Source: Tridacna crocea
Taxonomy: Eukaryota > Mollusca > Bivalvia > Cardiida > Cardiidae
NCBI GenBank assembly: GCA_943736015.1
Contig: OX031062.1
Location: 30,787,462-30,851,461, forward strand
Reading direction: 5' to 3'
DNA length: 64,000 nucleotides
In this document: piece by piece, positions 6,083 through 61,911 of the stretch
Position numbering within the stretch: position 1 is the stretch's first letter
Layout: the number at the start of each line of letters is the position of its first letter
The notes under the pieces: generated by a model
Seen by the model: the letters and a program-made list of their open reading frames with translations, nothing else
Database searches by the model: none
What the model was told of the DNA's origin: nothing
Translations under genes and position numbers: made by a program

Positions 6083-6311
6083 TTAACCCTTTCCCAAACG
6101 ACAAACTTCTGGACTTGACCAAATTGAAAGCATTTGCAGACGATAATTCAGCTCTTGCTGAAAAGATGATTTCTGTCTATGATAGGGTAGAAAACATTGT
6201 AGGAAAAGGAGAAAATGCTGGTTACCAGCATTTTCTCCTTTTCCCACAATTTTTTCAAAAGGCTACTATTCCAGACCCGTAAAAACCAGGGATTGTTTGA
6301 GAAAGGGTTAA
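6083..6311 (+). mobile_element. Family A TTAA foldback MITE
   Basis: Complete copy bounded by TTAA, with inverted ends CCCTTTCCCAAAC / GTTTGAGAAAGGG and the central hairpin core AAATGCTGGTTACCAGCATTT. It is the variant with CCCAAACGAC ends also seen at 17173 and 58229. Confidence 0.9.
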
Positions 6312-6609
6312 AAAAATGACCTAGATTGGCCTGCGCATTCTGTGCAGACTGACCTGGTTTAATTTTTTTGTTATTGGTCAATTTACTGCCTAGGACCATT
6401 CTGTTTCATGATTTAGTCTGTAATTGGACAATAAGGTTATAATTATATTAGGAACTGCTTGGTATGATGTATCACAAAGATGTATCAAACCCCCCTTTCA
6501 CAAGAGCACCACTCAGTTTATACTGATTAACCCTTGACCACACAGTGAAATTTTATACCTATTCAAATTGAAAGCAATTTCATAGTGGCTCAAATGACAC
6601 AATTTTTCT

Positions 6610-6836
6610 TTAACTCTTTACCACACAAGAAAATTTTAGACTGGTCCAAAATGAAAGCATTTGTAGACCACAAAATAAAGGTAACTGAAAAATTGAAATT
6701 TGGTATGGGAAGGGTAGAAAACACTTTGGGAAAAGAAGAAAATGCTGGTTACCAGCATTTTCTCCTTTTCCCAGTGTTTTCAAAAGGCTTCTTCCTCAGG
6801 GTCATCAAAAGTCGGAATTGTGTGGTAAAGAGTTAA
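6610..6836 (+). mobile_element. Family A TTAA foldback MITE
   Basis: Complete, TTAA at both ends, GGTTACCAGC core intact, left arm carrying the AAAGCATTTG block. It is followed directly by a partial second right half. Confidence 0.9.
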
Positions 6837-6965
6837 TAGGGTAGAAAACTTTGTGGAAAAAGGAAAAAATGCTGGTCACCAGCATTTTCTCCTTTTAGCA
6901 CAATGTTTTCATTAGGCTTCTTTCTCAGGGTCATTGAAAGACGTCATTGTGTGGTAAAGAGTTAA
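6837..6965 (+). mobile_element. Family A, partial right half duplicated in tandem
   Basis: Repeats the hairpin (core GGTCACCAGC) and right arm of the preceding copy and ends in GGTAAAGAGTTAA. It has no left arm, so it probably arose by local duplication. Confidence 0.8.
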
Positions 6966-6989
6966 AATGAATGTATTCAAGAGACAAAC

Positions 6990-7050
6990 CTGTTTCTGTG
7001 TAGTTTGCATATTCTCTTTCACCAGCACTGTCTCCAGTTGGCTCTGAAAC
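6990..7050 (-). CDS. Host gene exon 11 (last found), partial gene end
   Basis: 61 nt; it starts in phase 0 and leaves one base, encoding VSEPTGDSAGEREYANYTET plus a split Gly. The acceptor is TGATTATAG and the donor is CAG|GTTTGT. The frame agrees with exon 10. The segment resembles exon 5 in being a short polar stretch next to a Gly-Pro-Gly exon. No stop codon follows, so the gene should continue to lower coordinates, past the retrotransposon or out of the window. Being short and with a modest donor, it is less certain than exons 7-10. Confidence 0.6.
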
Positions 7051-7718
7051 CTATAATCAATTTTGATTAATTCCATTGCACAAATGAGTTGATTCAGTAA
7101 ATGCCATCAATCTCTGAGAAAAATGCACACATGGTTAAAATTATGACAATTACTTGATGCAGCTGATGAAGACCTTTGTTCTGCTTTTAAATAAGTATAA
7201 TGCAATGTAACCATAACATGAAATACAAAAAAGCAAGACAGAAGTGATGGGTTAATATCACTTAAAGTTAAAGCTTTATATCCTGTTGACTTCTTTTTTC
7301 ATCTCACAGCAAGCCATTTTTGAAATCATTTCTACATTAGAACTTACTATGTGTGCAATATCTTTTGTTATGATGCTTTCTTGTGTATAAATTTTGTACA
7401 TGGAACTTCAATATTTATGTTGATTATACATATTTCAAAAAAAAAAATGTCTGTTTTCTTTGGCAAATTGGTTGGAGGAGCTTCACTGCCATCTACTCAC
7501 AAGTATCAAAATAAAATGTAAGAATTGTGTTCAAAAGCACTTGATACCATATAAAACCTGCTTGGTTTGCTTTTGAGGCTATATTACAGTGTAACAAGAA
7601 CAGGTCTGGAAAAAAAGCAAAATGAATATGACAGCATGTTGTAACCAAGGATGGCAATGAGACATTTGTCCACTCTAAATATCCATGAATGAACTGTTAC
7701 GTAATTGTTACTACTTAC
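7051..7718. other. Intron 10 of the host gene
   Basis: No MITE or other repeat that I recognise. AT-rich with short poly-A runs. Confidence 0.5.
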
Positions 7719-7822
7719 AAGTGGTTGTTGGCAACCATTATCAACTCTCAAGTTCTTAATGTCATTTCCTTGTAAGTAGCTTATCCCTGGGCCACCTGCT
7801 TCACCATTGATAGAGCCACCTC
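7719..7822 (-). CDS. Host gene exon 10, Gly-rich GPG segment
   Basis: 104 nt; the acceptor is GTGTTAAAG|GA and the donor CTT|GTAAGTAG is strong. It begins with two bases completing a Gly codon from exon 9 and ends in phase 0. It encodes GGSINGEAGGPGISYLQGND, followed by a segment containing NGC. The AGGPGxxY pattern resembles exon 6 (PGGPGTVYF), so the same module seems to occur twice in the protein. Function unknown; extracellular by the signal peptide of exon 1. Confidence 0.78.
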
Positions 7823-7996
7823 CTTTAACACAAAAAGAATGTCAGAGCTTCAGATAAATATAAGAATAAGATTCTGAAACTGTGTGATCAGTTTGCAGAA
7901 ATCCAGAGGGCAATAAAATTTTAGATGAAACACCTGATTGTTTAGCGTTAAAGAGACTGAGGGGACCCTCATAAGACCTGTCCCGCTGAGACATTT

Positions 7997-8253
7997 TTAG
8001 CCCTTTATCACACATTCCCAAGTTTTAACTACCCTGAAGAAGTAGATGCCTTTTGAAAACATAGTAGGAAATTGAGAAAGAACTGGTAACAAGGATGGGA
8101 AAAGGTGAAATATATGCTTGTTGTCAACATTTTCTCACAATGTTTTCTATACTATCATAGAAAGTAATCATCGTTCTGGCAACATTTAATTTGCTTTCTG
8201 CAAATACTTTCATTTTAGCACAGGCCAATTTTTTTCATTTGGAAAAGAGTTAA
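7997..8253 (-). mobile_element. Family A, diverged copy
   Basis: Right-arm block comes first and the copy ends GGAAAAGAGTTAA. The hairpin is badly decayed, so this is an old copy. Confidence 0.65.
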
Positions 8254-8379
8254 TAAGTAAGAACCTACCATGTAAGTTATAGAGAATAGCAAAGATTAGT
8301 ATTATGCTTTTAGCACTGCACCTCAGTCACTGATGTTTTTATTATGTAATGAAGACAGATATTAATATCTGCATATGAG

Positions 8380-8596
8380 TTAACCTTTTACCAAACAACA
8401 AAATTTTAGACTGGTCCTAATTGAAAGCACTTGCAGAGGACAAAATAAAATAACTCTAATATTGAAATTTGTTTCCTGCAGGGTAGAAGACATTGTGAGA
8501 GAAGGAGAAAATGCTGGTTCTCCTTCTCCCACAATGTGTTCAAAAGGCTTCCTTCTCAGGGTCGTAAAAACCAGGGATGGTTTGGTAAAAGGTTAA
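8380..8596 (+). mobile_element. Family A, first of a TTAA-sharing pair
   Basis: TTAACCTTTTACCAAACAAC start and GGTAAAAGGTTAA end. The hairpin has lost the ACCAGC half of its centre. Its right TTAA (8593-8596) is also the left TTAA of the next copy. Confidence 0.82.
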
Positions 8597-8818
8597 CTGT
8601 TTACAACACAGTCCTGAGCTTTAAAGACCCTGAGATAGAAGCATTTAGAAAACATAGTGGGAAAAGGCAAAAATGATGGTTTTCTGCATTTTTTCCTTTT
8701 CCCATAATGATTTTGACCCGATCAAAAACAAGTTCCATCATTTGAGTCACATTTAAATTGTTGTCTGGAAATGCTTTCAATTTGGGCAAGTCTGCACTTT
8801 TGTCATAGTAAACATTAA
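8593..8818 (-). mobile_element. Family A, second of a TTAA-sharing pair
   Basis: Inverted relative to the preceding copy, sharing the TTAA between them. The hairpin core is mutated (GATGGTTTTCTGC). Confidence 0.78.
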
Positions 8819-9411: not shown

Positions 9412-9641
9412 CGTAACTCATTACCAAACAACAATATTTTAGGCTTGTCCAAATCAAAAACATTTGCAGACAACAAAATAAAAGTGACTGAAAATTTGAA
9501 ATTTGTTTTGTAAAGGGTAGAAAACAATGTGGGAAAAGGAGAGAGTGCTGGTTACCAGCATTTTCTCCTTTTCCCACAATGTTTTCTAAAAGCTTCTTTC
9601 TCAGGGTCGTCAAAAGTAGAGATTGTGTGGTAATGGGTTAA
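9412..9641 (+). mobile_element. Family A TTAA foldback MITE
   Basis: Variant with CATTACC ends. Hairpin core intact; ends GGTAATGGGTTAA; left terminus slightly decayed (GTAACTCATTACC). Confidence 0.87.
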
Positions 9642-9757: not shown

Positions 9758-10243
9758 AGGCCCGTCGGAAGGAAATTTCGTTTGATCCGGCCAATATGGC
9801 GAGTGACGAAGTCGTCAAGCCATGCTTGGGGGGCATGCTTCCCCGGAAAAATATTACGCATTTAACCCATTACCACACAATCCCTACTTTTGATGCCCCT
9901 GAGAATGAAGCCTTTAGAAAACATTGTGGGGAAAAGGAGAAAATGCTGGTAACCAGCATTTTCTCCTTTTCCCACAATGTTTTCTACCCTTCACAAAATA
10001 AATTTCACATTTTCAGTCACTTTTATTTTTTTGTCTGCAAATGCTTATAAATTGGACCAGTCTAAAATATTGTTGTTTGGTAATGGGTTAAGCCATGCTA
10101 GGGGGGTCCTAAGACGCTCTCTGGTGCATTCTGGCACATTTATTGAGGTTTATATTTTTTTTCGAAAATTGGTCTGGCCATTTTTCATTTTCGGCCAAAA
10201 ATTTGGTCCGGCCATGGCCGCACCGGCCCGACCGCTTCAGACA
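9758..10243. mobile_element. GC-rich family K element, split by a family A MITE
   Basis: Ends AGGCCCGTCGGAAGG and ..CCGGCCCGACCGCTTC; the middle has CGAAAATTGGTCTGGCC. The same sequence occurs inverted at 62630-62905. Here a family A copy interrupts it at TTAA (9862-10091). Open frames inside are not gene-like. Confidence 0.75.
9862..10091 (-). mobile_element. Family A MITE nested in family K
   Basis: Complete 230-bp copy, TTAA at both ends. The interrupted K copy gives its relative age: A inserted after K. Confidence 0.88.
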
Positions 10244-12096: not shown

Positions 12097-12160
12097 ATTA
12101 ACCCTTTACCACACAGTTCCAAGTTTTAACCACCCTACTAGAAAAGTCTTTTATTGTTGG
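12097..12160 (-). mobile_element. Family A fragment
   Basis: TTAACCCTTTACCACACAGT start only; the remainder is lost. Confidence 0.6.
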
Positions 12161-12264
12161 AAACGGAGAACGGTAGCTAACCTACAATGTTTACTTGTCT
12201 GGAACAAGACTTAATTATTGTCCTCTGGTAGAGTCATCTCTCTCGCCACCAATGTCGCCTTGAA

Positions 12265-12449: not shown

Positions 12450-12630
12450 TACAAAGAAGAGCATTCTTTGTCTTGTTCTTCAAGATTTTCTAACTATGAA
12501 AGTAACAGAACTTATGATTGGCTAAACCAAATGGTTTAGCCAATCAGAAATTCTGTTACTTTCACATTGACAAAATTCTGAAGAATAAGACTGAGCGTGT
12601 TCTTAAGAATGCTTGGTGAATACCGACCCA
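12450..12630. mobile_element. Family E CCAAT-palindrome MITE
   Basis: Palindromic core GATTGGCTAAACC / GGTTTAGCCAATC flanked by GAAAGTAACAGAA / TTCTGTTACTTTC. Right end TTAAGAATGCTTGGTGAAT. The left end is diverged. Confidence 0.8.
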
Positions 12631-12651
12631 GGAGCCACTCAGTTTACTTAC

Positions 12652-12902
12652 CGTAGACGGAAGTCCGTTGCTTATAATACTTCCTTCTATTTGTATAAAC
12701 TCCTTCACGTACATTCTTACAAATCCCCCACCGCGACCGCCAGTTTTACCGCTTGGTACATGACTACCTCCTCCGGAGCCCCACACACTTTCTTTAAAGA
12801 TCGAACCGTATGGATACCCAGCAAACTGGTAGCCAGCACCTCGACCGCCCCTGCCACCATGACTGGCACCACTTCCTCCGGTAATGGATATCTTACCTTT
12901 GC
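12652..12902 (-). CDS. Host gene exon 8, glycine-rich module
   Basis: 251 nt; acceptor CATCAACCAG|GC, donor TACG|GTAAGTAA. Two bases complete a Gly from exon 7 and it ends in phase 0. Motifs: GGSGASHGGRGGRGAGY, WGSGGGSHVPSG, GGRGGGFVRM, then IEGSIISNG. The order (Gly loop, hydrophobic strand, xGSIISNG) parallels exon 2, where ISVDGVISVNGG follows the Gly loop. Exon 2 and exons 8-9 therefore look like copies of one module. Confidence 0.85.
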
Positions 12903-13107
12903 CTGGTTGATGACAGAAAAGTTTCTTTGTACAAACATTTGAGGAATGCTACATGAAAAGTGGACTGAACGCATCTGCTAAATGTATCAACTCAGGTCAT
13001 CCCGCGTAGTCTCCGCAGGCTATCCGGGATCGAAACACTTTCCTATTGGTGAATTTTCTGCATGTTGAAGGATATAACTCCTGTTATAGCACATATCTTC
13101 ATGATTT

Positions 13108-13320: not shown

Positions 13321-13523
13321 TCGTCGGCCAGATTGGAATCTATGCAGATCCGGAATCTGCCCAGGCAGATCTGGAATCTGCCTAGACCAAATTAGAATTA
13401 TGATTTTGTGTAGACTAAAAATTCTTTTCAATTTTTTTTTTATTCATATTAATTCACATGTGTTTACAAGTGAAATGTATTTTTAATTAAAGTAATTTAT
13501 GAATTGATGAATTACAGACGTAC

Positions 13524-15497
13524 CAGGTCCTTCATCAGACAGGTAACCGCCTCCAGTCACATCTATGGTTCCCGATATCGTGACTCTTTCGCAGTCCTGG
13601 GTACCATCGTCTGTCGGTCCAAAATGCAGCGATCCCGCTTGCAGTTTACCGCTAATATGAACTTCCCTGTATAACATCTGTGAGGGTTCCGAACCGTTGG
13701 CCATGTTATCTGGATCATGTTGAAAGGCAAAGTCTACAAGTCCTCCAGATTGGATTGTGAAAGCAACTCCTTGTATAGTTACCGGACAGGAGAAGTCTAC
13801 ACGTCCTGTGCTGTTGATCAAACAGAAGACCATGGTCATTTCCGCAGTTGGCTGCGAGTACAGTCGTCCAGCTATTTCAGCTTTTGTTACTGTCCAGTTT
13901 GTATCACCAGACTGAAATTGGGAACCATCATTCATGACGAACTTCGACGCGATCACTTTGGATTGAGAAACCCAATTGGAGCTGACGAGAGAGTCAAATG
14001 TTACCGAGCCCTTTGAATCAATGAGGAGAAAAAGGTCATCGTTTTTTGCATAAATGTTGATAGTGTTAAGACAAGTTAAGTCTCCATTTACGTAAACATT
14101 ATCGATGATGAAGTCATCTTCGATTTCGAGAAGCACAGTACCACCCTCGTATATTTCTATCGAGTCCCACTGTCCGTTTGGTATGACTCTGGGCTTCATC
14201 TTTCCAGGATAAAACTTACCATAAACTTTTAAAGTATGAAGTGCAACTTTAGATACTCCAGACCAAGGTCTTTGATTTCCTGATACAGAATCAAAAGTAA
14301 CGGTTCCACCCTCACCCACTGTCATAACGTGAACCATCTCAATGTCTTTGCCCTCAAGGTGAATTGGTGCTATGGAGGTCAGCTTTCCTTCAACATTGAT
14401 TTCATGAACGTGGTAAATTCCGCACGGATTAAATACCCAGTCCCCAGATTTTCCGATGTCTATTTCATCTATTCCTTCACCAATAGACAAATTCCCCGCG
14501 TTAAATGAACCATCAACCATCAAATACCTTACTTTCATTACACTACAGGAGTCATTACTGTCTGAGTTTAGAGTCAAACTGCCTGAACGACCGTGTATAA
14601 AGACGGTTTCGATTCTTGAATCGGACGTGTTCGGTGCTTGGAACACGGCAGCATTTCTTAAGTTCAAGTGACCATAAACATGTAAAGACTTCATTTTTAC
14701 TGGTCCTACTGCTTGAAAATCTGAGCGTCCGTTTTCACCAAAAGTTAGCTGACCTATGTTGTCACCGAATGTAATATTGGCAGTTGGAAATACATTGTTA
14801 ATGTTGATATCGGAACAATCAAGAATGATTGTGTCGGAAGTCTCGGGCCATGTTAACGAACCATCGATATGTAGAGACTTACATGGACTTTCAAAATGTA
14901 CATATTTGTCCAGTATCAAAGTTCCGTTTATGTCGATTGCTGTGCCGAGTAACATGTTTGAAGTCACAGGATCAAATCTTACTGACCCAGCCTTGTCAAC
15001 AGAGAATACTTCAACTTCGTTTAGCTGCAACAAACTGGCCGTGAAAGTGCCAGTTATAAACACTTCCTCGATTGTTAAACTGAATTTTCTTGCTTTGTTT
15101 TTAATGGTGACTAGGCCTGATTCTTGAATTTCAAACTTTTTAACATTGATGGAATCTAACTCGAGAGTGTCCAGAGTAATGTTTCCTTGTCTTGAGACCG
15201 TAACTGATCTTTGTGTAGAATTAACAAACTGAATTTTACCTTGCATGTAGATAAAGCTATTCAGAACTACGTTTTCATCAGAAATAATTTGAAGTGTAGA
15301 CCCCGGATATATCAGGTAACTGACATCCACTTTAGCGTTCACGGATACGACGCTGCTATCGGTTACGTGAACTACAGACTCCTTGGATCCTATCACATTC
15401 TGGAAGGTGTAGCTGGCACTCAGTACAACATGTGAACCTTCTGTAACGACCAGGATCACCGGATCAGAGGAAGGATCTAGGATATATGCTGCGGCTC
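13524..15497 (-). CDS. Host gene exon 7, large beta-solenoid-like repeat region
   Basis: 1,974 nt, the largest exon; acceptor TTTAAACAG|GAGCC, donor CCTG|GTACGT, phase 1 on both sides. It encodes 658 residues with no known catalytic motif. A motif of type VxVxGxL recurs at least twelve times: VFITGTF, DINGTL, LHIDGSL, LHVYGHL, VFIHGRS, LMVDGSF, INVEGKL, LKVYGKF, VYVNGDL, AEIAGRL, VHISGKL and VTISGTI. Many are followed by a segment ending GxVxFD. Alternating hydrophobic strands with Gly turns suggest a right-handed beta-helix; this is inference. Several NxS/T sites and few cysteines fit an extracellular protein. I recall similar Gly-loop plus strand repeats in large uncharacterised secreted proteins of molluscs and in plant glycine-rich proteins, but cannot confirm homology here. 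Confidence 0.9.
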
Positions 15498-15579
15498 CTG
15501 TTTAAAAAAAATGAAAATTCTGATATTTCATATTTCTCGTGGTCTACATTATGGGACAGCATGAGCCACAGGTACCTTT

Positions 15580-15924: not shown

Positions 15925-16184
15925 TGTGACCCATCATGCAAAAAGGGACCTCTGGGAAGTGCGAAAAGTCTCGACCCTGGTCAGCCTGCGCGGATTGCGC
16001 AGGCTGACCAGGGTCGAGACTTTTCGCTTTTATGATATTTTCTGTTTGAAAAGTGGTCATTCTACCTTACTGTAGAATCATTTTTGAACTATCAACTTAA
16101 CTTGACCTGCACTATCTTTGATCTGTTTTCATCTCATTGATGTGCGGAATTTCCAGATCTCCCCTTTTCGCGTGACGGGTCACA
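15925..16184 (-). mobile_element. Family C foldback element, complete
   Basis: Inverted ends TGTGACCCATCA.GC / GCGTGACGGGTCACA, flanked by AATTT on both sides, a possible 5-bp duplication. Near one end is a 70-bp perfect-looking hairpin (GCGAAAAGTCTCGACCCTGG and its complement) with centre CTGCGCGGATTGCGCAG. Confidence 0.85.
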
Positions 16185-16770: not shown

Positions 16771-16836
16771 CAGGACGACATAAATGTAAGCATGTATATA
16801 GATTCAATGCCAAAACAAGGCTCATTTTGATTATTT

Positions 16837-17061
16837 TAAGTCTATACCAAACGACAAAATTTCAAACTAGTCAAAATTGAAAGCATTTGTAGACGAAACG
16901 ATATACATGACTCGAAAATTGAAAATTGTTCTGGGAGGGTAGAAAACATTATAGGAAAAGGAGACAATGTTGATTACCAGCATTTTCTCTTTTTCCCAAG
17001 ATATTTAAAAATGTTTCTTTTTCAGGGTCGTGAAACCAGGGATTGTTTGGGAGAGGACTTA
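16837..17061 (+). mobile_element. Family A, diverged copy
   Basis: Left block TACCAAACGACAAAATTTC, core TTGATTACCAGC, right block GGGATTGTTTGGGAGAGG. The TTAA ends are lost. Confidence 0.78.
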
Positions 17062-17095: not shown

Positions 17096-17572
17096 TGTGA
17101 CCCATCGCTCAAAAAGGAACCATCTGGGGTACATCAATTAGATGAAAACAGATCAACGATAATTCAGGTCAGTTAACCCTTTCCCAAACAATCCCTGGTT
17201 TTTACGGGTCTGAAATAGTAGCCTTTTGAAAACATTGTGGGAAAAGGAGAAAATGCTGGTAACCAGCATTTTCTCCTTTTCCCACAATGTTTTCTACCCT
17301 ACCATAGACAGAAATCATCTTTTCAGCAAGAGTAGAATTGTCGTCTGCAAATGCTTTCAATTTGGTCTAGTCCAAAAATTTGTCGTTTGGGAAAGGGTTA
17401 AAGTTGATAATTCAAAAATGATTGTATAACAAGGTGCAATGACCACTTTTCATACAGAAAATGTCATTAAAGCGAAAAGTGTCAACTCTGGTCAGTCTGC
17501 ACAGTTCGCGCAGTCTGAGCAGCGCTGACACTTTTCGCAGTTCCCAGAAGGTCCGTTTTTGCGGAATGGGTC
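17096..17572 (+). mobile_element. Family C element split by a family A MITE
   Basis: GTGACCCATCGCTCAAAAAG start, hairpin GCGAAAAGTGTCAAC..GACACTTTTCGC, end GGAATGGGTCAT. Where other C copies read GGTCAATTAAAGTTGAT, this one carries a family A insertion between two TTAA copies. Confidence 0.86.
17173..17401 (-). mobile_element. Family A MITE nested in family C
   Basis: Complete 229-bp copy with a perfect-looking hairpin. The host C element gives an empty-site comparison that proves duplication of TTAA. Confidence 0.93.
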
Positions 17573-17968: not shown

Positions 17969-18165
17969 CAACTCTTTACCAAGTGATAAAATTTTAGACC
18001 AGTCCAAATTGAAAGCATTTGCAGACGACAAAATTAAAGAAAACTGAAATAAGAATTGATATGTCTATAGGGAGTATAGAAAACATTTTGGGAAAAGGAG
18101 AAAATGCTGGTTACCAGCATTTTCTCCTTTTCCCATAATGTTTTCAAAAGCTTTTTTTCTCAGGA
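17969..18165 (+). mobile_element. Family A, right end truncated
   Basis: CTCTTTACCAAGTGATAAAA start and an intact hairpin. The right arm stops after TTTTTTCTCAGG. Confidence 0.8.
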
Positions 18166-18356
18166 TTGATCGACTGAATTAGAGTTTAATGGCGTTTTAA
18201 GCGCGTAGATCATATCAAGGTGAGTTAATCTATGCATATGTTTCCTGGCTTTTTTACATCAGAACTGACAAAACTTTCTTTCAAAATCACTAATTATATA
18301 CTCTCTCATATGTTACTGAAATGGGAGGCGAAAAATCGCCGAAAAGATAATTTGCC

Positions 18357-18588
18357 TTAACCCATTACCACACGATCCCTACTTTTGTCGATCCTGAGTA
18401 AAGAAGCATTTGGAAAACATTGTAGGAAAAGGAGAAAATGCTGGTAACCAGCATTTTCTCCTTTTCCCACAATGTTTTCTATCCTTCCCAAAACAAATTT
18501 CAAATTTTCAGTCATTTTTAATTTGTCGTCTGCAAATGCTTTCAATTTGGACAAGCCAATTTTTTTTTTTCATTTGGGAAATGGTTAA
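18357..18588 (-). mobile_element. Family A TTAA foldback MITE
   Basis: CCATTACCACACGATCC end variant, intact hairpin, TTAA at both sides. Confidence 0.9.
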
Positions 18589-19236: not shown

Positions 19237-19463
19237 TTAACCCATTACCACTCAATCCCTACTTTTGACGCCCCTGAGAAAGAAGCCTTTTGAAAACACT
19301 GTAGGAAAAGGAGAAAATGCTGGTAACCAGCATTTTCTCCTTTTCCCACAGTGTTTTCTACCCTTCCCAGAACCAATTTCAATTTTTCAGTCACCTTTAT
19401 TTTGTCGTCTGCAAATGCTTTCAATTTGGACCAGTCCAAAATTTTCTCGTGTGGTAATGGGTT
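19237..19463 (-). mobile_element. Family A TTAA foldback MITE
   Basis: TTAACCCATTACCACTCAAT start, intact hairpin; the right end has changed TTAA to TTCA. Confidence 0.88.
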
Positions 19464-19998
19464 CACAAAGAAAGCAGTTCGTTGGTGTATACAAGAGTTA
19501 TGACAGTATAGTGTGAAATAATAGATTTCAGAGAAAATCACGTCCAGTGAGCTATTCAAAAAAGATGGAAATTTGTTTTCATCCTGACACTTTTTCATTT
19601 TTTTATTCCACACTTCTTCTAATTGCCAAATATATCCGCCCACTTTATTGCCATTAGTATCCGCCATTTATTTACATTCGAAGTGACAAAACCAATCAAC
19701 AAAACTCATTAACCTGAATTAAACAGAATTGATAAACATCCGTAAATTATTTTGTGTTTGAGTTAAACCTTTTTCCTCCCTTTTTTCGGGGACATGTGTA
19801 ATTTTACAAGTCAAATTTGACTGAATACTTACATATACCGTGAATTGTGTATGTATAGGTGAAAAAATAGTTCCGTACCAGCGAGTTCAAATCGGTAAAT
19901 TCCCTTTTCGAAATCGATATGGTCCCTGTTTTGGCTCAGTTATTAAAATGTGTGATTCGTCAGGAAAGCCTGGTTCGATTCTGGAATGTGGCAGTGTC
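19464..19998. other. Intron 5 interior, nothing recognised
   Basis: No exon, MITE or SINE that I can support. Confidence 0.4.
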
Positions 19999-20232
19999 GT
20001 AACCTATTACCACACAATCCATACTTTTGACGCCCCTGAGAAAGAAGCCTTTGGAAAACATTGTGGGAAAAGGATAAAGTGCTGGTAACCATGCAGCATT
20101 TTCTGCTTTTCCCACAATCTTTTCTACCCTTCACAAAACAAATTTCAAAATTTTCACTCACTTTTATTTTGTCGTCTGCAAATGTGTTCGATTTCGACAA
20201 ACCTAAAATTGTGTCGTTTGGTAATGAGTTAA
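19999..20232 (-). mobile_element. Family A MITE
   Basis: Intact arms. The hairpin centre has an insertion (GGTAACCATGCAGC), so the loop is no longer a perfect palindrome. Right end TTAA. Confidence 0.82.
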
Positions 20233-21044: not shown

Positions 21045-21416
21045 GACACATATTGTTAATGATCAAATAAATACATCTGTCTACCCTTGTAATCTTCAGG
21101 GCAGCGTAAGGAAAAAAAGGATGTTTCATGTTCAGATAAAAAGCCAAAAGCACATGTAGAAATATGGACAGCTTCAAAAGAAAAATAGAGAACATGAGCT
21201 GGACGAACCTTTATATCCCCGCAACATCATTGCTAGTTCTATTCCGTAGTGCCAAGATTTCACATACAGACGGACACGAGAGGTATATATAGGCCATGGC
21301 ATCTGAACGGTTGATCGATAGTGTCGTCCTTGGAAAACGAAGTTACTGTCGCCGAGCGGGATCTATAATACGAAACTTTTTTTTTTTTCATCTCTTTGAT
21401 AAAATAATCTCTTGAT

Positions 21417-21595
21417 TTTATGATCCTGAAGGGGCGTTTTTTGAAAATATTGTGGGAAAAAGAGAAAATGTTGGTAACCAGCATTTCCTCCTTTTTCCCA
21501 CACTGTTTTCGACCATCCCAACGCAGATTTTGAAATTTCTAATGACTTTGATTTTTCGGCTGCAAATGCTTTCAGTTTGGAAAAGTATGTATTGT
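21417..21595 (-). mobile_element. Family A, both ends truncated
   Basis: Starts in ATCCTGAAGGGGCG; core TGGTAACCAGCA; ends TTTCAGTTTGGAAAAG. Confidence 0.78.
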
Positions 21596-21837
21596 TGTTG
21601 CCTGCTTTTCAAAGAGTTCTGTAATGGTAAATTTATTACCTCCTGCGTTATTTGCCTTCCTTTATTGTACCATAGGCCACTGAAACTCCATTGGTCTATC
21701 ACGGGATAACGAATTTTTATTATCGGGCGTTACTATAAATAGGACAATGGTGATTCCATCTATATCGTATATAGTAAGACAACACTCGTCATGTCTCGGC
21801 CGATTCCGTACCTACATCTAACCTCATCCGTGTGACG

Positions 21838-23288: not shown

Positions 23289-23506
23289 TTAACCCTTTTC
23301 CAGACGACAAACCCATCAAAACTGAAAAAAAAAAAAAACATATAAACGACGAAAAAAACATTGGTGCAGTATTTTTATAGAGTAAAAAACATTGCAGGAA
23401 AAAAAAGAAAATGCTAGTTACCAGTATTTTCCCCTTTTCCCAGATTGTTTTTAAATACTTTCTCTCCTAGAGTCGTCAAAAGGGGCATTGAATGGTAAAG
23501 GGTTAA
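23289..23506 (+). mobile_element. Family A, diverged copy
   Basis: TTAACCCTTTTCCAGACGAC start, GGTAAAGGGTTAA end, core AGTTACCAGTA. A poly-A run replaces part of the left arm. Confidence 0.8.
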
Positions 23507-24014: not shown

Positions 24015-24434
24015 CTACAGGTCCAAGCTTTGCAGGTCGCCATGAACACTAAAGGAGATCAAGGGATTCGTATTTTCCTTGATAAAACACACAGTTATTG
24101 TTATCTGTTAGATCTATGTGGGTTTTTCATATCCTGATAAAACCATACGTGGTTATTTCCATGAATAAAACCACCCCGATTCACTTCTTCGAAAAAAGTG
24201 AATAAATTGATGTCACATATGATATCATATGATAAATGTCTGGACGTATGTAGGATAAGAACATTCATAATGGGTAATCGTACATCACAATGAAAATAAG
24301 AGAGGTTATGTGATAATATTTATCTCTGTTATCATGTTAGGATTATGTAAATTCGCATAGTCATTGCAGTATCCCAATCTAATCACGTTGCGGAGAAAGT
24401 GTACATATATATCATTTAGAATTATGTATCTATT

Positions 24435-26927: not shown

Positions 26928-26945
26928 CTGAAACAGAAAGAGGTC

Positions 26946-43388: not shown

Positions 43389-43775
43389 TTAACTCTTTAC
43401 CAAACGGCAAAATCCTACAATGGTCCAAATTGAAAGCAATAATTGCAGACGACATGATAAACGTAACTGTGTGGTGGTGTCCGTGGTCGTGAGGTAGAGC
43501 GTCGGCCTCATTACCTAAAGGTCCTGAGTTCGATACCCGTGAGCCGATGTCACCTTTGGAATTTTTCATTGGCCTACACATTTGGCGCGAGTATTGCTGT
43601 AGTACCCACGAAGCAGAATCGAAAGAGATTTATATAAGTTGTAAGAAATTGATTCTCAATCATTGTAAAATAAATATGTTTAAACTAAGCTAAATGTAAC
43701 TCAAAAATCGAAACAGGTTTACAGCAAGGTAGAAAATATGTGGGCAAAGGAGAAAATGCCGGGTACAATTATCTA
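43389..43775 (+). mobile_element. Family A split by a SINE
   Basis: Left arm 43389-43468 (CTCTTTACCAAACGGC.., GCAGACGACATGATAAACG), remainder 43685-43775 (CTCAAAAATCG.., GAGAAAATGCCGGG). The SINE between has an 11-bp flank repeat. Confidence 0.82.
43469..43684 (+). mobile_element. tRNA-derived SINE with target-site duplication
   Basis: Head GTGGTCGTGAGGTAGAGCG (A box), GAGTTCGATACCC (B box). 3' part CGAAGCAGAATCGAAAGAGA. It is flanked by TAAACGTAACT on the left and TAAATGTAACT on the right. Confidence 0.88.
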
Positions 43776-43799
43776 ATCTCATGTTGTAGTTATCACCGG

Positions 43800-43975
43800 A
43801 AAAATGTTTTTGAAAACATTTTGAGAAAAAGAGTTCATACACGTCATAAGCATTTTCTCCCTTTTCCAAAATGTTTTCTATCCTCTCTAAGACCAGTTCA
43901 ATCATTTGATCCTTACCTAATTTGTCGTCTATTTTTTTGTTATTTTGACATTCTGACAAGTCTACAAGCTATTCT
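43800..43975 (-). mobile_element. Family A, diverged
   Basis: GAAAACATTTTGAGAAAAAG, core decayed, then TCCAAAATGTTTTCTATCC and a left-type arm remnant. Confidence 0.65.
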
Positions 43976-46608: not shown

Positions 46609-46839
46609 TTTTACCTTTTACCTGATATGCCAATTTGAGGCTCTTCCATTTCAGCAGCAAATAAAGATAAGATGTCAAAAATATGGACAAATGAAGATAC
46701 AAATATCTGATTGAGTGGAAAACATTGTGGGAAAGGGAGAAATTGCTCGTAACGAGCAATTTCTCCTTTTCCCACAATGTTTTCAAAAGCTGTGTGTTGT
46801 TGATACATCAAAATGAGTATCTATGGAGTAAAGGGTTAA
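46609..46839. mobile_element. Family A relative with alternative core
   Basis: CTTTTACCTGATATGCCAAT start (also seen as a fragment at 20229-20285), core AAATTGCTCGTAACGAGCAAT, end ATGGAGTAAAGGGTTAA. Confidence 0.85.
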
Positions 46840-46982: not shown

Positions 46983-47290
46983 AGGGTATGTTGTACTTCC
47001 GTATTTCGTAACATTCTTCAGAATTTTCTACATTTGTAATTTACACAACTTCTGATTGGCTAAACCATTCGGTTTAGCCAATCAGAAGTTGTGTTACTTA
47101 CAAATTTAGAAAACCCTGGAGAATAGGACTAAGAACATTTTGACATTTTGACAAGTCTACAAGAGACAACTTCTGATTGGCTAAACCATTCGATATATCC
47201 AATCAGAAGTTGTGTTACTTAGAAATTTAGAAAACCTTGGAGAACAAGACTAAGAACATCCTCAAGAATGGTTGGTGAATACGTGCCCTA
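46983..47290. mobile_element. Family E with duplicated core
   Basis: CTTCTGATTGGCTAAACC / GGTTTAGCCAATCAGAAG at 47049-47088; a second core at 47170-47212 with one arm mutated. Ends GGTTGGTGAATACGTGCCCT. Confidence 0.83.
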
Positions 47291-47324
47291 ATGTGTCTCA
47301 AAAAATCATTTTTTGTCTTTGATA

Positions 47325-47455
47325 CAGAAGAAAATCTTGTGGAAAAAGGAGAAAATACTGGTTACCAGCAATTTCTCCTTTTCCAAGAAGATTTTAAAAT
47401 TTCTTCCTCCTGTGGGTTGTGGAAATTTGGGCTTGTGTCAGGTAAAGGATTAATC
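47325..47455 (+). mobile_element. Family A, left truncated
   Basis: GAAAATACTGGTTACCAGCA core, right arm poorly kept, end GGTAAAGGATTAA. Confidence 0.72.
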
Positions 47456-47707: not shown

Positions 47708-47945
47708 TTAACCCTTTACCAAACAATCCCTGTTTTTAGGACCCTGAGATAGAAGCCTTTTGGAAACGTTTTAGGCAGAGGAGGAAATGCTGGTAATTAG
47801 AGACTAGCGGCATTTTTTTTTCTCCTTCATCCACAATGTTTTTTATGCAATCAAAGACAGAAATACTCATCTAAGCAACATTTGATTTGTTATCTGAAAT
47901 GGCTTTCAATTTGGTTGAGCGCAAAATTTTGTTTCCTGGGGTTTT
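47708..47945 (-). mobile_element. Family A, hairpin disrupted
   Basis: TTAACCCTTTACCAAACAAT start; core interrupted by an AGAGACTAGCGG insertion; right end decayed. Confidence 0.75.
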
Positions 47946-48009: not shown

Positions 48010-48242
48010 TACACACTCTATTACTACACAATTCCTACCTTTGACGCCCCTGAAAAAGAATCTTGTAGAAAACATTGTGGGAAAAGGAGAAAATGATGGT
48101 AACCAGCATTTTCTCCTTTTCCCAAAATGTTTTCTACCCTTCACAAAACAAATTTAAAATTTTCAGTCACTTCTATTTTGTCGTCTGCAAATGCTTTCGA
48201 TTTGGACAAACCTAAAAATTTTGTCGTTTGGTAATGAGTTAA
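48010..48242 (-). mobile_element. Family A MITE
   Basis: CTCTATTACTACACAATTCC start; core ATGGTAACCAGC; end GGTAATGAGTTAA. Confidence 0.86.
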
Positions 48243-48511
48243 GTCATTTAGCTCCATACTGAACAACAGAAACATTTAGGTTTTTTTTTCATACTGAAAG
48301 TTTTTTAATATAACCCTTTTAGATCTTGCTAAAATAGTAGCTACCGCCTTTGGAGCCAAAAAGAACATTGCGAACAAAGCACGAAAAGCTATTCTTATGC
48401 TGTAATTGCCACCTTTTACCACGATATTTTCAACCGTTTTCTTCGGCACAGTGAAGTAACAATACCTGACCATTGGATAAAAGGTCTATATAGACTATAG
48501 CCCATTCTATC

Positions 48512-48740
48512 TTAACTCTTTCCCAAATGACAAAATTTTAGACTGGCACAAATTGAAAGCACTTGCAGACGACAAAATAAACGTAACTCAAAAATTGAAA
48601 TTTGTTTGCAGCAAGGTATAAAACATTGTGGGAAAAGGAGAAAATGCTGGTTACCAGCATTTTCTCCTTTTCCCACAATGTTTTCAAAAGGCTTCTGTGT
48701 CAGGGTCGTAAAAAGCAGGGATTGTTTGGTAAAGGGTTAA
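48512..48740 (+). mobile_element. Family A TTAA foldback MITE, well preserved
   Basis: All parts intact: TTAACTCTTTCCCAAATGAC, AAATTGAAAGCACTTGCAGA, hairpin, GGGATTGTTTGGTAAAGGG and TTAA. Confidence 0.93.
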
Positions 48741-48935: not shown

Positions 48936-49129
48936 TAACAGTTTTATTTTTATATCTATCTCTATAGGCCTAATGCTTATTTAAATTTGTTTTATTCTAC
49001 AGTAAATCTAATTTATTTTGCGCTATAAAACTCTATTGTAGTTCAATTTAAGAAGCGGCCATTAACAGTCTGGTGCGACATTGGCCCTTTTGTGGTACCA
49101 TTTCTCAGCGTTTCACCTTTAACACCTAA

Positions 49130-49323
49130 ACGTTTACCAAACAATCCCTTCAGATAGAAGCCTTTTGAAAACATTGTGGGAAAAGGAGAAAATGCTGATA
49201 ACAATAATAATCATTTTCTACCCTCTCCAACTCAAATTTCAATTTTTGATTCAGATTTATTTTGTCGTCTGCAAATCTTTCATTATGGACCAGTCTAAAA
49301 GTTTTGTTGTTTGGTAAAGGGAC
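49130..49323 (-). mobile_element. Family A with deleted hairpin arm
   Basis: TTTACCAAACAATCCC start; AAAATGCTGATAACAATAAT in place of the second arm; end GGTAAAGGGACAA. Confidence 0.78.
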
Positions 49324-49553: not shown

Positions 49554-49782
49554 TTAACCCTTTACCACACAATCCCTGGTTTTTACGACTCTGAGAAAGA
49601 AGCCTTTTGAAAACATTGCAGGAAAAGGAGAAAATGCTGGTAACCAGCATTTTCTCCTTTTCCCGCAATGTTTTCTATCCTGCTTGAAACATCTTTCAAG
49701 TTTTGAGTTACTTTTGTTTTGTCGTCTGCAAGTGCTTTCAGTTCGGACCAGTCTAAAATTTTGTCGTTTGGGAAAGGGTTAA
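49554..49782 (-). mobile_element. Family A, first of a TTAA-sharing pair
   Basis: Complete 229 bp; core intact; TTAA 49779-49782 shared with the next copy in the same orientation. Confidence 0.92.
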
Positions 49783-50008
49783 CCCTTTACCACACAATCT
49801 CTACTTTTAACGACCCAGAAAGAAAAGTGCTTTTGAAAAGATTGAGGAAAAAGGAGAAAATGCTGGTTACCAGCATTTTCTCCTTTTTCCACAATGTTTT
49901 CTGCCATATTAAAGACAGAAATCACTCATTCACAACATTTGAATTGTCGTCTGCAAATGCTTTCAATTTGATCCAGTCCAAAATTTTATCGTTTAGTTAA
50001 AAAGTTAA
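49779..50008 (-). mobile_element. Family A, second of a TTAA-sharing pair
   Basis: Complete 230 bp; TTAACCCTTTACCACACAAT start; core intact; end AAAAAGTTAA. Confidence 0.9.
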
Positions 50009-55184: not shown

Positions 55185-55406
55185 TTAACTCTTTACCACA
55201 CAATCCCTACTTTTGACGACCCTAAGCCTTTAGAAAACATTGTGGGAAAAGGAGAAAATGCTGGCAACCAGCATTTTCTCCTTTTCCCACAACGATTTCT
55301 ACCCATCACAAAACAAATTTCAAATTTTTAGTCACTTTTATTTTGTCGTCTGCAAATGCTTTCGATTTGGACAAGGTTGAAATATTGTCGTTTGGTAAAG
55401 GGTTAA
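55185..55406 (-). mobile_element. Family A TTAA foldback MITE
   Basis: TTAACTCTTTACCACACAAT start; core TGGCAACCAGC; end GGTAAAGGGTTAA. Confidence 0.9.
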
Positions 55407-55419: not shown

Positions 55420-55653
55420 TTAAAACTCTTTACCAAACGTCAAAATGTTTGGACTGATCCAAATTGAAAGCACTCGCAGAGGACAAAATAAACGTAAAGA
55501 TTGAAATTTGTTTCTATATAGCAGGGTAGACAATATTGTGGGAAAAGAAGAAAATGCTGGTTACCAGCATTGTCTTCTTTTCCCACAATATTTTCAAAAG
55601 GCTTCTTACTGAGAAAAAAAAGTAAAAACTAGGGACCGTTTGGTAGGGGTTAA
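55420..55653 (+). mobile_element. Family A TTAA foldback MITE
   Basis: TTAAAACTCTTTACCAAACG start; hairpin arms share AAGAAGAAAATGC..GCATTGTCTTCTT; end GGTAGGGGTTAA. Confidence 0.87.
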
Positions 55654-56443: not shown

Positions 56444-56709
56444 TTAACCCTTTAAAATATTTAGGGCTTGTCCAAATTGAAAGCATTTGCAGACGACAAA
56501 ATAACAGTGACTGAAAATTTGAAATTTGTTTTGTGAAGGGTAGAAAACATTGTGGGAAAAGGAGAAAATGCTGGTTACCAGCATTTTCTCCTTTTCCCAC
56601 AATGTTTTCTACTCTTCTATAGTCATGTTTCAATTTTTGAGTCATACTTTATTAGTCGTCTGCAAATGCTTTCAATTTGGACAAATCTTGTCGTTTGGGA
56701 AAGAGATAA
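56444..56709. mobile_element. Family A, symmetric form with two left-type arms
   Basis: The left arm has TCCAAATTGAAAGCATTTGC and the right arm has its complement GCAAATGCTTTCAATTTGGA. Right-type sequence (CAGGGTCGT..) is absent. The hairpin is intact. It ends 22 bp from the exon 1 donor. Confidence 0.88.
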
Positions 56710-56731
56710 AAGAAATTGAGAAAAGACAAAC

Positions 56732-57035
56732 CTCCGGATCCATGCGTGTTTCCGCTTCCTAGACCTCCGACTTCCGTTGGATCGACGACAATTTTCCCAC
56801 CAGAATTGATTGTGATGCTATCGGAAGCTGATATCTTGACTTCGTTCGCCACCTGTACCCGGATAGTCCCGCTCACGGTTGCTGTGGAAACATCAATACT
56901 TTGTCCCAGAATGCATTCGTTCCCGGTCGGGATCTGAAGTTCGTTCTGCTGATTTTTGAAAGAATCACAATTCCCGACGGCAAAACATTGCCGTAGAAGG
57001 ATTGACAACATTATAATGATACTGTAGAGCAACAT
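56732..57035 (-). CDS. Host gene exon 1, signal peptide and N-terminus
   Basis: 304 nt from ATG 57035 to donor GGAG|GTTTGT; phase 1 end. MLLYSIIIMLSILLRQCFA is a classic signal peptide with probable cleavage before VGNC. An in-frame ATG at 57080 would put 15 polar residues before it, so I prefer 57035. The mature part has three Cys, strand-like repeats (STATVSGTIRVQ, VKISASDSITINSGGKIVVD) like those of exon 7, then a Gly-rich GGLGSGNTHGSG that continues in exon 2. The secreted location is well supported; the role is unknown. Confidence 0.85.
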
Positions 57036-57214
57036 TTTGCGATGCTCAGTGGCGATACTCCCGCCAGTATCGCGGGACATCGTTTTGGTAAACTGTTTAA
57101 ACCAGATATTAAAAGATTGTCATTTCACTGATAAAAACAGTCAGATAACGTTATTGTTTTAATCTATCTTGCCCTTATTGCAATACTGGATCCGTTTGAC
57201 GAAAAGCATCCGTG

Positions 57215-57338: not shown

Positions 57339-57553
57339 TTCCTTTCCCAAGCGATCTAATTATAGATTCATCCAAATCCAAAGCAATTGAAAACTACAAG
57401 TACATGGATTAAATACGTTTTACAAAGGGCAAAAAAAAACATTGTATGAAAAGGAGAAAATGCTGGTTATCAGCATTTTCTCCTTTTCTTACGACGTTAT
57501 AGAAGGCTTTTTGTCGGGGTCATTAAAATTGGTGTTTGTGTAGTAAAGAGTCA
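57339..57553 (+). mobile_element. Family A, diverged
   Basis: CCTTTCCCAAGCGATC start; core TGGTTATCAGC; end GTAGTAAAGAGTCAA. It lies about 300 bp upstream of the host start codon. Confidence 0.75.
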
Positions 57554-58228: not shown

Positions 58229-58462
58229 TTAACCCTTTCCCAAACAACAAACTTTTGGACTAGACCAAGTTGAAAGCATCTGCAGACGGCAATTCAACTC
58301 TTGCTGAAAAGATGATTAATTTTCTGTCTATGATAGGGTAGAAAACATTGTGGGAAAAGGAGAAAATGCTGGTTACCAGCATTTTCTTCTTTTCCCACAA
58401 TGTTTTCAAAAGGCTACTATTCTAGACCCGTAAAAACCAGGGATTGTTTGGGAAAGGGTTAA
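58229..58462 (+). mobile_element. Family A TTAA foldback MITE
   Basis: CCCAAAC-end variant with GCTCTTGCTGAAAAG-type left interior, shared with 6083 and 17173 but not most copies. Confidence 0.92.
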
Positions 58463-59892: not shown

Positions 59893-60110
59893 CTAATCCT
59901 TTCCCAAACGACAAACTTTTGGACTAGACCAAATTGAAAGCATTTGCAGACGACAATTCAACTCTTGCTTAAAAGATGATTTCTGTCTGTGATAGGGTAG
60001 AAAACATTGTGAGAAAAGGAGAAAATGCTGGTTACCAGCATTTTCTCCTTTTTCCATAATGTTTTCAAAAGGCAACTATTCCATACCCGTAAAAACCTGG
60101 GAAAGGTTAA
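59893..60110 (+). mobile_element. Family A MITE
   Basis: CCTTTCCCAAACGACAAAC start, GATTCAACTCTTGCT-like left interior; right end shortened to CCTGGGAAAGGTTAA. Confidence 0.87.
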
Positions 60111-60216
60111 AATGTTTATACATTTTTTGCATCCATCATATACAAATCGAAGATTCGATTACCGCAGACGATAAGAGTGACTATTTTCTCCATTCAGAAA
60201 TATGAAGAAAATACAT

Positions 60217-60382
60217 AGAGGATATTTGTTTCTTTCGGTGAAAGATCGAAATTTATTTCATCGAATGAACATCATCAGTAATATTTTCACGAATGGCGCA
60301 GCCACGAGTGAAAATATTACCGATTGTGTTCACGAGATGAAATAAATTTCGATCTTTCACCGAAAAAAGAAATATTCTATTT
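60217..60382. repeat. Palindromic element family I, copy 2
   Basis: CGGTGAAAGATCGAAATTTA / complement, inner pair TAATATTTTCACGAATGGCG / CACGAGTGAAAATATTA. Better preserved than copy 1. Confidence 0.85.
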
Positions 60383-60393
60383 ATTTCATGCTT

Positions 60394-60947
60394 TTAAAGG
60401 TGGGTATTTAGAATTTTCACATCTCACCAAATTAAAAAAAATATATATCATTGAAATTTATCTGAAAAACAATACAAATCATCAATAATTAAGAATCATA
60501 AAATTACCCCCCAAAAAATTTTTTTTTGATGCTATTCCCTTAAAAGGCTACGTAGCCTCTTAAGGCATTGTTAGATTTCGCGCCAAAAATGAAAAAAAAA
60601 AAAGCATTTTGGGCATGTAACGTGACTGGCACGTGACTAATGACACTTAAATTCCATAACATAACAAACATGTAATTATTTTCCATAATTTCTTCTTCGG
60701 ACGCTATGTTTGATACGTCATATGTGTATTTCCGGTATGTAAATGAGCAAGCTGCTCATCTAAAAATAGACCATGTTTCTTGTCGGTGTCGACCTGGGCC
60801 GTAGTAAATCTCTAATTTCTCTTGTTGTCGGATGGTTTTCGACTACTGGGGTTTTATGAATGAAAATTAAAAGGCCTTTGGATTATATGGATGAGTTTGT
60901 TATATTTTAGTAAAATATCGTCACAAAATCTGAAGGGCCACCTTTAA
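60394..60947 (+). mobile_element. Family J, 554-bp TTAA-bounded element
   Basis: TTAAAGGTGGGT start, GGGCCACCTTTAA end. Inverted relative to the copy at 50369-50922 and of equal length. Confidence 0.9.
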
Positions 60948-61261
60948 CCCTTTCTGGGAGGAGCTTTATCAGAATCCAGTACAGTTCTTTTCCGTTATTC
61001 CCAGTGGCGTACCTCTCCCGCATAGCAACGCATTACCGTGAATATTACGTCAAGCGCGAGAAATCTAAGGTGTATGACGTCATATTTCCCATCTGGTTGT
61101 TAGGCACGCACAATTTACCTAGGCAACAAGAACATGAAAATCGGTATTTTCTGTGGTGGTACCAGTTTAAGATCGAAAAATATTTTTACTGCTATATCCT
61201 ACCGGAAAGCATGAAATAAGAATGTGTCATGTTCTGTGACAAGGGGATTTTTGCATCTACA

Positions 61262-61315
61262 AAAATATCTACCCAGGTCAGCCTGCGCGCACTGACTCGA
61301 AATTTTTCGCTTTCT
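61262..61315. repeat. Family G half-hairpin
   Basis: ACCCAGGTCAGCCTGCGC then GACTCGAAATTTTTCGC; the second arm is mostly deleted. Confidence 0.5.
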
Positions 61316-61364
61316 GGTAAATTGTGTGTAGGTCAAAGGACAATTCTATACTTTATGACTCAAA

Positions 61365-61540
61365 ATGTTATGAGACAAAAAAAAAATCCATACTTTTGTG
61401 ATGACTTGCTTCCCAAGATGTATCACAGAAATCGTTGTCTGCGCATGTCATTTTCTTCGAAAATTCGACCTGTCTACTGTGACGCATCACCCATCCTCCG
61501 TATACCGGGAAAAGTAGGGCTCATATCGAAGCTATATTAG
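61365..61540. repeat. Dispersed repeat L, copy 3
   Basis: CGTTGTCTGCGCATGTCATT, GACGCATCACCCATCC and GGGAAAAGTAGGGCTC blocks. Confidence 0.65.
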
Positions 61541-61645
61541 CCTATTACCCAAGCATTTGATGTATAGGTTACGTGCTAGGCGATCATAGCTCATTGAATG
61601 GACCGCGCAGGCCTCACATGAGTCGATACTATCTGTAGATGCATT

Positions 61646-61911
61646 TAGCCCTTTACCAAAAGACAAAATAGCAGTCCAAATTGAAAGCATTTGCAGACAA
61701 CATCTTATATACGGATCAAAAATTGAAATTTGTCTTGGCAGAGACATAAATAACATTGTATTGTATATCTTTGGTGTTGTGAAGCGTAGAAAACATTGTG
61801 GGAAAAGGAGAAAATGCTGGTTACCAGCATTTTCTCCTTTTCCTACTATATTTTCAAAAGGCTTCTTTCTCAGGGTCGTTGAAAGTCGGGATTGTGTGGT
61901 AAAGAGTTTAC
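61646..61911 (+). mobile_element. Family A with 38-bp insertion
   Basis: CCCTTTACCAAAAGAC start; extra ATAACATTGTATTGTATATC before the hairpin; end GGTAAAGAGTTTA. Confidence 0.84.

Follow-up and report, generated by a model that had tools for sequence, protein, structure and literature searches.

The window analysed here is a 64,000-bp stretch of the Tridacna crocea genome (G000:C7:30787462-30851461; genome of 1,048,827,098 bp in 31 contigs), and about a fifth of it consists of copies of one short foldback element, here called family A. We conclude with considerable confidence that family A is a miniature inverted-repeat transposable element (MITE) mobilized by piggyBac, that it has reached an extreme copy number and that it carries a structurally constrained palindrome whose role we infer. 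By extrapolation from a 200-kb sample, the family amounts to about 18 % of the genome and about a million copies, which, if true, would mean that a single piggyBac-type MITE family rivals the short interspersed elements (SINEs) in genome share. What is unusual is the combination of this genome share for one short DNA-transposon family with a stem that changes in a compensatory manner. Among the open-licence papers searched, a scope that makes this weak evidence, none was found to describe family A, a MITE with a similar share of its genome or a eukaryotic MITE with a compensatory stem.

To detect family A in the window, the end motif TTAACCCWTTACCAAAC was searched for with up to 3 mismatches, which gave 80 matches compared with 0.88 expected from dinucleotide shuffles; none of 100 shuffles attained 80. 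A profile was also built from 15 clear window copies and then iterated. At E≤0.01 it returned 78 non-overlapping segments, the first from 6083 and the last to 61908, covering 13,337 of the 64,000 bp (20.8 %), and no match in each of five dinucleotide shuffles of the window. Chaining of the segments gave 71 copies, 39 on the plus strand and 32 on the minus strand, and both model ends were reached to within 12 positions by 42 of them. A sequence-only reading of the window had described about 60 copies adding up to about 12 kb, near a fifth of the window, between 6083 and 61911 and in both orientations, with shared TTAACCC(T/A)-type ends, asymmetric arms and a central hairpin of about 70 bp. Its copy number and total length were slightly low, and the remainder of this description was borne out.

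The family A consensus, the building of which had been proposed in that reading as a check, was 229 bp including one TTAA per end. It is bounded by inverted repeats of 14–17 bp, which are joined to the central hairpin by a left arm (about 86 nt) longer than the right one (about 36 nt), both measured from repeat to stem. Inverted repetition between the two halves was confined to the outer 14–17 nt and does not extend into the arms. The end consensus on both sides was TTAACCC(T/A)TTACCA(A/C)AC, so that the family's own end is TTAACCC(T/A) followed by TTACCAAAC. Inverted repeats numbered 73, and of the 25 that were displayed, 11 belong to family A; their hairpins had arms of 33–36 nt separated by 1 nt and a total length of 67–73 nt. 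The element is thus short and uniform in length, has a high copy number and terminal inverted repeats, and contains no transposase gene, as is characteristic of a MITE. A 24-nt piece of the stem gave no match among viral contigs.

The genome-wide count that had also been proposed was made in two ways. The exact 17-base end occurred 49,319 times in the 1.049 Gb (24,739 forward and 24,580 reverse), and both exact ends lay 180–210 bases apart in 4,913 forward and 4,875 reverse cases, elements fitting both orientations being counted twice; the reversed controls gave 0 for both counts. For the profile, a sample of 20 stretches of 10 kb, evenly spaced at round coordinates on contigs 1–12, was taken, and the genome estimate rests on these 200 kb. 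They contained 209 segments covering 35,323 bp (17.7 %, bootstrap 95 % interval 11.7–24.3 %), with a range of 0 to 59.6 % per stretch, and the share was 15.8 and 11.4 % at stricter limits of at least 40 and at least 100 bits respectively. Shuffled and reversed versions of the sample each gave no match. Scaled to the whole genome, the 198 chained sample copies correspond to 1.04 million, with a standard error of 0.18 million, and the 106 segments near full length, 47 of which had TTAA at both ends, to about half a million. The window contained 6 exact ends compared with 3.0 expected from the genome mean, and its profile share of 20.8 % was close to that of the sample; the idea that it is a special family A cluster was unsupported given the sample average.

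Window and sample together (264 kb) contained 143 near-full copies, whose distances to the nearest neighbour, computed from arms and tips, had a minimum of 0.032 and a median of 0.129. It follows from these distances that family A is not brand new.

Divergence differed between the parts of the element, with median values from the consensus across the 143 copies of 0.070 for the stem, 0.125 for the terminal inverted repeat and 0.21 for the arms. To compare stem and arms between lineages, five subfamilies defined by their arms were used, comprising 68, 12, 8, 6 and 5 copies (99 of the 143; the other 44 fell in smaller groups and were unused). It was found that the consensus stem was paired at 33 of 33 bp in all five. 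Among the ten pairs of consensuses, the stem was identical in three, and 3 or 4 stem pairs differed in the remaining seven; every one of these differences was compensated, with 0 one-sided. The arms of the subfamily consensuses showed 18–74 differences over 121 positions, and the three consensus pairs with 0 stem changes had 18, 28 and 29 arm changes. Changes were carried by the stem pairs 115/167, 121/161, 128/154, 133/149 and 138/144, and in the 143-copy set these were in Watson–Crick states in 116/134, 113/134, 126/134, 122/132 and 117/132 copies respectively, the denominators being copies with letters on both sides.

Compensation was also apparent at the level of single copies. For the 56 window segments spanning the hairpin, 28 double changes to Watson–Crick pairs were counted compared with 7.9 expected when one side was shuffled (maximum 16 in 1,000 shuffles), an expectation that ignores relatedness. 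A tree of the 143 copies was then built from arms and tips only. Its internal branches carried 8.4 compensated stem changes, compared with 0 to 1.0 when the partners were slid by −1, +1, +2 or +3, and its tip branches carried 23.9, compared with 2.5 to 6.7. Changes per column on internal branches were 1.23 for the stem and 4.9 and 5.4 for the arms, although unrelated, poorly aligned arms may have inflated the arm rates. Within clusters, total divergence from the cluster's own consensus was 0.045, 0.029 and 0.013 for the stem, compared with 0.129, 0.063 and 0.083 respectively for the arms. Private changes for stem and arms were 0.024 and 0.029 in one set, 0.0124 and 0.0115 in the largest cluster, and 0.0215 and 0.0358, and 0.0095 and 0.0239, in two smaller clusters. 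Judged from these patterns of substitution, the stem looks constrained as a structure.

Two observations weigh against this interpretation. One-sided stem changes numbered 62 on internal branches, compared with the 8.4 compensated, and 428 on tip branches. The stem was also slower than the arms on tip branches, at 0.044 compared with 0.075 per site (0.59 of the arm rate), and for this reason the data do not cleanly show that the constraint acts on source copies alone. By the same tip rate and the private changes above, a wholly neutral decay of the stem in resident copies was not sustained.

Our leading interpretation is that the stem would matter in DNA during transposition. Family A would be non-autonomous and would move by cut-and-paste into TTAA sites, relying in trans on a transposase from the piggyBac superfamily; a centre that is symmetric or can fold would help the unequal ends to meet, or the excised element to survive, and it would mainly be copies with intact stems that became sources. 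In order of preference for the role of the stem, we place function in DNA during transposition before arm-by-arm correction, and the latter before function in RNA. A broader proposal, which we consider possible but short of probable, is that a million-copy family occupying about 18 % of a 1-Gb genome would owe this success to its 33-bp palindrome as a device in cis for amplification or survival in DNA, with the palindrome selected, besides the tips, as a structure through compensatory changes while the arms were replaced. MITEs are usually thought to need little beyond their ends, and a family that has a compensated stem and ranks with the most frequent sequences of the genome makes the question of what makes a MITE successful testable. 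Of 141 palindromes above the score limit in the 264 kb, 105 lay within family A, and the family would accordingly be expected to be the leading source of the genome's hairpin-linked instability, assembly errors and double-stranded RNA.

The symmetry could instead arise by mutation, with one arm of the hairpin templating repair of the other when the element is single-stranded or extruded. Such templating would yield paired changes and no one-sided changes between consensuses, as was seen. Template switching is further suggested by a copy in which part of the hairpin is duplicated in tandem (42237-42377, +) and by symmetric derivatives in which the arms round one hairpin are both of the left or both of the right type, of which there were 6 left–left and 4 right–right candidate pairs in the 264 kb, to be set beside the 143 near-full copies. 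However, pure templating predicts a stem rate similar to the arm rate, whereas the stem rate was about four times lower on internal branches and remained low when CpG-type sites were left out (1.16 compared with 4.78 changes per column, the latter subject to the same possible inflation). Templating also does not predict the three consensus pairs whose stems are identical despite their arm changes. We regard it as rather unlikely to be the main cause of the symmetry.

Selection on the stem as RNA, with transcripts providing a perfect 33-bp hairpin for small-RNA processing or for shielding from the host, is considered unlikely. The predicted RNA fold of the whole consensus is stable (−90 kcal/mol), long open frames that are candidate host-gene exons flank the copies, and the human palindromic MITE Made1 is reported to have given rise to miRNAs (microRNAs), according to the part of that paper available (PMC1784062). 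Against this, a scan of the window found no Rfam family at gathering score, and copies occur in both orientations.

Within the piggyBac framework, the palindrome could be bound by a transposase dimer through its paired cysteine-rich domains, one domain on each half. The available part of one source describes palindromes of 19 bp in piggyBac ends and paired cysteine-rich domains that bind palindromes in both piggyBac and piggyBat (PMC11707139). These known palindromes are short and near the ends, whereas that of family A is central and spans 67–73 nt, and symmetry along the whole 33-bp stem would exceed a protein footprint. This explanation is accordingly judged improbable, and a role of the stem in DNA during transposition remains our preferred reading.

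The target site was characterized by joining the flanks of window copies with one TTAA and comparing them with the rest of the window, and three cases were read by hand. In each, exactly one 4-base site was found at the join in uninterrupted relatives. For the copy at 17173-17401, the host is another MITE that recurs uninterrupted four times in the window; three of these relatives aligned without gaps over the compared stretch, and the fourth (24540-24793) had GGTCAATTAAAGTTGAT at the site where the joined copy has GGTCAGTTAAAGTTGAT. The copy at 18357-18588 lies in a SINE-like host, of which the relative at 28131-28313 is uninterrupted and aligned without gaps. The copy at 6610-6836 is nested in an older member of the family (6527-6965), and its joined flanks aligned to four further family A copies without gaps over the join. 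Since uninterrupted relatives keep a single 4-base site, one of the two TTAAs is target-site duplication and not element, and the alternative that both belong to the element, which the sequence-only reading had named as a finding that would count against its assignment, was rejected. Direct repeats of at least 3 bases beyond TTAA were found in none of 17 copies (1 base was common in 4/17 and 2 bases in 1/17), and one TTAA is shared by neighbouring copies at 49779-49782.

Several results detract from the simple picture of TTAA duplication. An intact TTAA was present at the aligned site in only one of the nine relatives (24540-24793), the other eight having at least one change, and this same relative of 17173-17401 was gapped away from the join, with the nearest gap about 8 bases before the site. 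A further candidate (9862-10091) aligned on the right flank only and decides nothing. An automated scan of 130 joined sites in the 264 kb found relatives for 21; the alignment was continuous at the join in 11 and gapped there in 10, and the latter include the best match for 6610-6836, to a relative other than those read by hand. Several of the automated matches were to the copy's own neighbourhood, and the conclusion on the target site relies for this reason on the hand-read cases.

To identify a source of transposase, the genome was searched for the piggyBac transposase family PF13843. There were 118 matches (best 2.3e-94), derived from 196 first-look candidates of which 116 were scored, compared with none in 14 control genomes. 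Open frames were up to 668 amino acids long, and several groups of copies had equal scores. Equal or near-equal scores were found for genes with open frames at G000:C10:28376412, C18:30428954, C3:66851558, C4:69349889 and others, which suggests recent activity of other piggyBac lineages. Of 29 loci fetched, 13 (L029-L041) included the flanks on either side and 16 (L042-L057) just the upstream flank. Ends were recognized at 13 of the 29, with both ends at seven (L030, L031, L034-L038) and one end at six (L033, L041, L042, L043, L048, L056); none was accepted at the other 16. The end search was led largely by TTAACC-like motifs, and the 13 two-flank loci were also scored for any TTAA-led inverted pair.

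The recognized piggyBac ends were TTAACCC followed by TATCCTCCAC, ATTTATGCCT, TTTATATAC, TTTCAGTGCG or TAGTCATGCG. The seven autonomous host elements thus have TTAACCC(T/A) ends and share their 8–11 outermost bases with family A; unlike family A, they encode the PF13843 transposase, and the rest of their inverted repeat and their subterminal sequence are different, with no subterminal similarity. The family A ends fit the piggyBac pattern CC(C/T)T or CCCAT. In the part of a piggyBac survey available, CCCTT is the best-kept end motif, CCCAT, CCCTC and CACTA also occur, and TTAA is present in most elements (PMC10813416). Taken with the piggyBac genes present in the genome, the duplicated TTAA of the three hand-read copies and the CCC(T/A)TT tips make piggyBac-type cut-and-paste in trans the best account of family A, which is very probably a piggyBac-type MITE as the sequence-only reading had proposed; we infer that the mobilizing transposase is of the piggyBac class. 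At L030, which has identical 17-base ends and an apparent intron, non-coding parts weakly match the family A stem (best 8.6e-9), and we read these matches as old insertions, the alternative being a clue to the origin of the stem.

Less favourable to this assignment is that the family's own end TTACCAAAC was present at none of the 13 loci with recognized ends, among the 29 fetched of 118 matches, and that two other superfamilies, Kolobok and Sola3, also use TTAA, the transposase search having covered piggyBac. Of the proposed check for longer relatives with the same ends, only a part could be made; it gave abundant piggyBac genes, with TTAACCC(T/A) ends beside 13 of the 29 fetched and none with the end of family A itself. 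Family A-like ends upstream of five piggyBac genes (L042, L046, L048, L049, L057) were whole family A insertions, and none of four orphan family A ends in the 264 kb was followed into an autonomous element. The autonomous partner may be among the unfetched loci, decayed or lost. No longer copy that codes for a transposase of a different class came to light, other classes not having been searched for across the genome, and Pfam detected no transposase in 10 window frames (of 140 frames of at least 75 amino acids). The Kolobok and Sola3 superfamilies also duplicate TTAA, and mobilization of family A by such a non-piggyBac transposase would agree with the lack of an exact piggyBac partner among the fetched loci, but it is very unlikely given that the CCC(T/A)TT tips resemble both the ends of the host piggyBac genes and the commonest published piggyBac motif.

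Among known systems, the closest in description are the CMITEs of Acropora corals, which are piggyBac-type MITEs (PMC2872659). In the available part of that source, CMITEs share with family A the TTAA duplication, short inverted ends (of CCCTTTCCC type in CMITEs), an internal region (75 bp) better conserved between families than the ends, as is the family A stem, and the presence of piggyBac elements in the same genome. They are about 100 bp long with about 1,600 copies estimated, compared with 229 bp and about a million for family A. An internal palindrome or compensation is not mentioned there, the likeness is one of description and not of sequence comparison, and the role of the conserved internal region is given as unknown. 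Made1, a human mariner-type element, is like family A short, non-coding and a near-perfect hairpin, but in the part of the source available it is 80 bp long and its hairpin is made of the terminal repeats, whereas family A has a central hairpin and separate ends (PMC1784062). The REPINs of Pseudomonas, as described in the available text, are miniature mobile elements whose hairpins show compensatory changes; unlike family A they are bacterial and tied to RAYT tyrosine transposases, and the commonest 16-mers of their three groups have about a thousand occurrences together (PMC3116915). For bivalves, the portions available of two sources report that a Mercenaria clam annotation has hardly any piggyBac, with unclassified repeats at about 25 % (PMC8905726), and that MITEs stayed unclassified in a survey (PMC10294476). 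From such annotations, families like family A could be widespread but unnamed.

The coordinates of individual window copies were taken from the profile search; those of the 78 segments beyond the copies given below were mostly weaker. Full copies with TTAA at both ends were at 8380-8596 (+), 9862-10091 (−), 31328-31559 (+), 36106-36331 (+), 41840-42068 (−), 42953-43185 (−), 48512-48740 (+) and 55185-55406 (−), with a divergent one at 23289-23506 (+). Also full and with TTAA at both ends were 6083-6311 (+) and 58229-58462 (+), which resemble subfamily C18, 30771-30999 (+), which fits subfamily B with unrelated arms and a compensated stem, and 35028-35255 (+), which fits subfamily C5 with a compensated stem. 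The full copy at 49554-49782 (−), with TTAA at both ends, has one TTAA in common with the next, a full copy at 49779-50005 (−) that abuts it. Other full copies were at 9413-9641 (+), 19237-19465 (−), 20000-20232 (−), 41313-41537 (−), 42638-42864 (−) and 55424-55652 (+), with a full divergent copy whose stem has CTCG/CGAG at 46613-46839 (+). The three empty-site cases are full copies on the plus strand (6610-6836) and the minus strand (17173-17401 and 18357-18588).

Near-full copies were found at 16836-17056 (+), 21402-21604 (−), 29312-29516 (−), 36401-36601 (−), 37479-37696 (+), 37844-38057 (+), 39766-39985 (+), 39991-40220 (−), 40384-40602 (−), 40606-40819 (+), 47708-47940 (−), 48020-48242 (−), 49128-49321 (−), 57340-57553 (+) and 59894-60102 (+), with an old one at 48248-48485 (+). 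Partial copies were at 12098-12214 (−), 25038-25171 (−), 43794-43930 (−) and 47289-47453 (+). The right end was missing from 17969-18166 (+) and the left end from 33885-34060 (+), while 26285-26477 (+) had both ends and was shortened internally and 8593-8806 (−) has a TTAA in common with its neighbour.

Copies composed of two chained segments were at 7997-8253 (−) and 61645-61908 (+), and at three loci where such a copy is interrupted: 24434-24939 (+) by another repeat, 29517-29950 (−) by about 210 bp of other sequence with a TTAACC start, and 43389-43771 (+) by a SINE-like insertion. The older copy at 6527-6965 is likewise split by the insertion 6610-6836 into a left part at 6527-6584 (+) and a right part at 6836-6965 (+). 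Interruption by other repeats or by family A itself suggests overlapping periods of activity. Of the symmetric derivatives, that in the window (56444-56709, strand unassigned) is a left-arm/hairpin/left-arm copy whose arms look like different subfamily types; the others were at L020:2414-2590 and at L012, L014, L016, L018, L023 and L026.

A second TTAA-ended family, with TTAACCCTTAGGC ends and its own central palindrome GATCAGACTGCAC, was present in the window at 27315, 34584, 35444 and 58191, and a transposase of similar type may have moved it. Six other palindrome families with 3–10 members each were found in the 264 kb, in the window at 15961-16027, 47013-47124, 25372-25460 and 63867-63945 and also at sample loci.

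Among the 10 window frames, Pfam matches were confined to endonuclease and reverse-transcriptase frames at 2923-5634. These belong to a retrotransposon of the non-LTR (non-long terminal repeat) type at 1336-5637 (+), with an endonuclease (PF14529) and a reverse transcriptase (PF00078); its upstream frame had no Pfam match, and one stop codon lies between the two frames. The minus-strand frames at 56652-57119, 26491-26943, 13483-15501 and 12562-12948 had no Pfam match. Frames on this strand between about 7600 and 57100 are possibly exons of one large host gene, a candidate that, if true, would make most family A copies in the window intronic.

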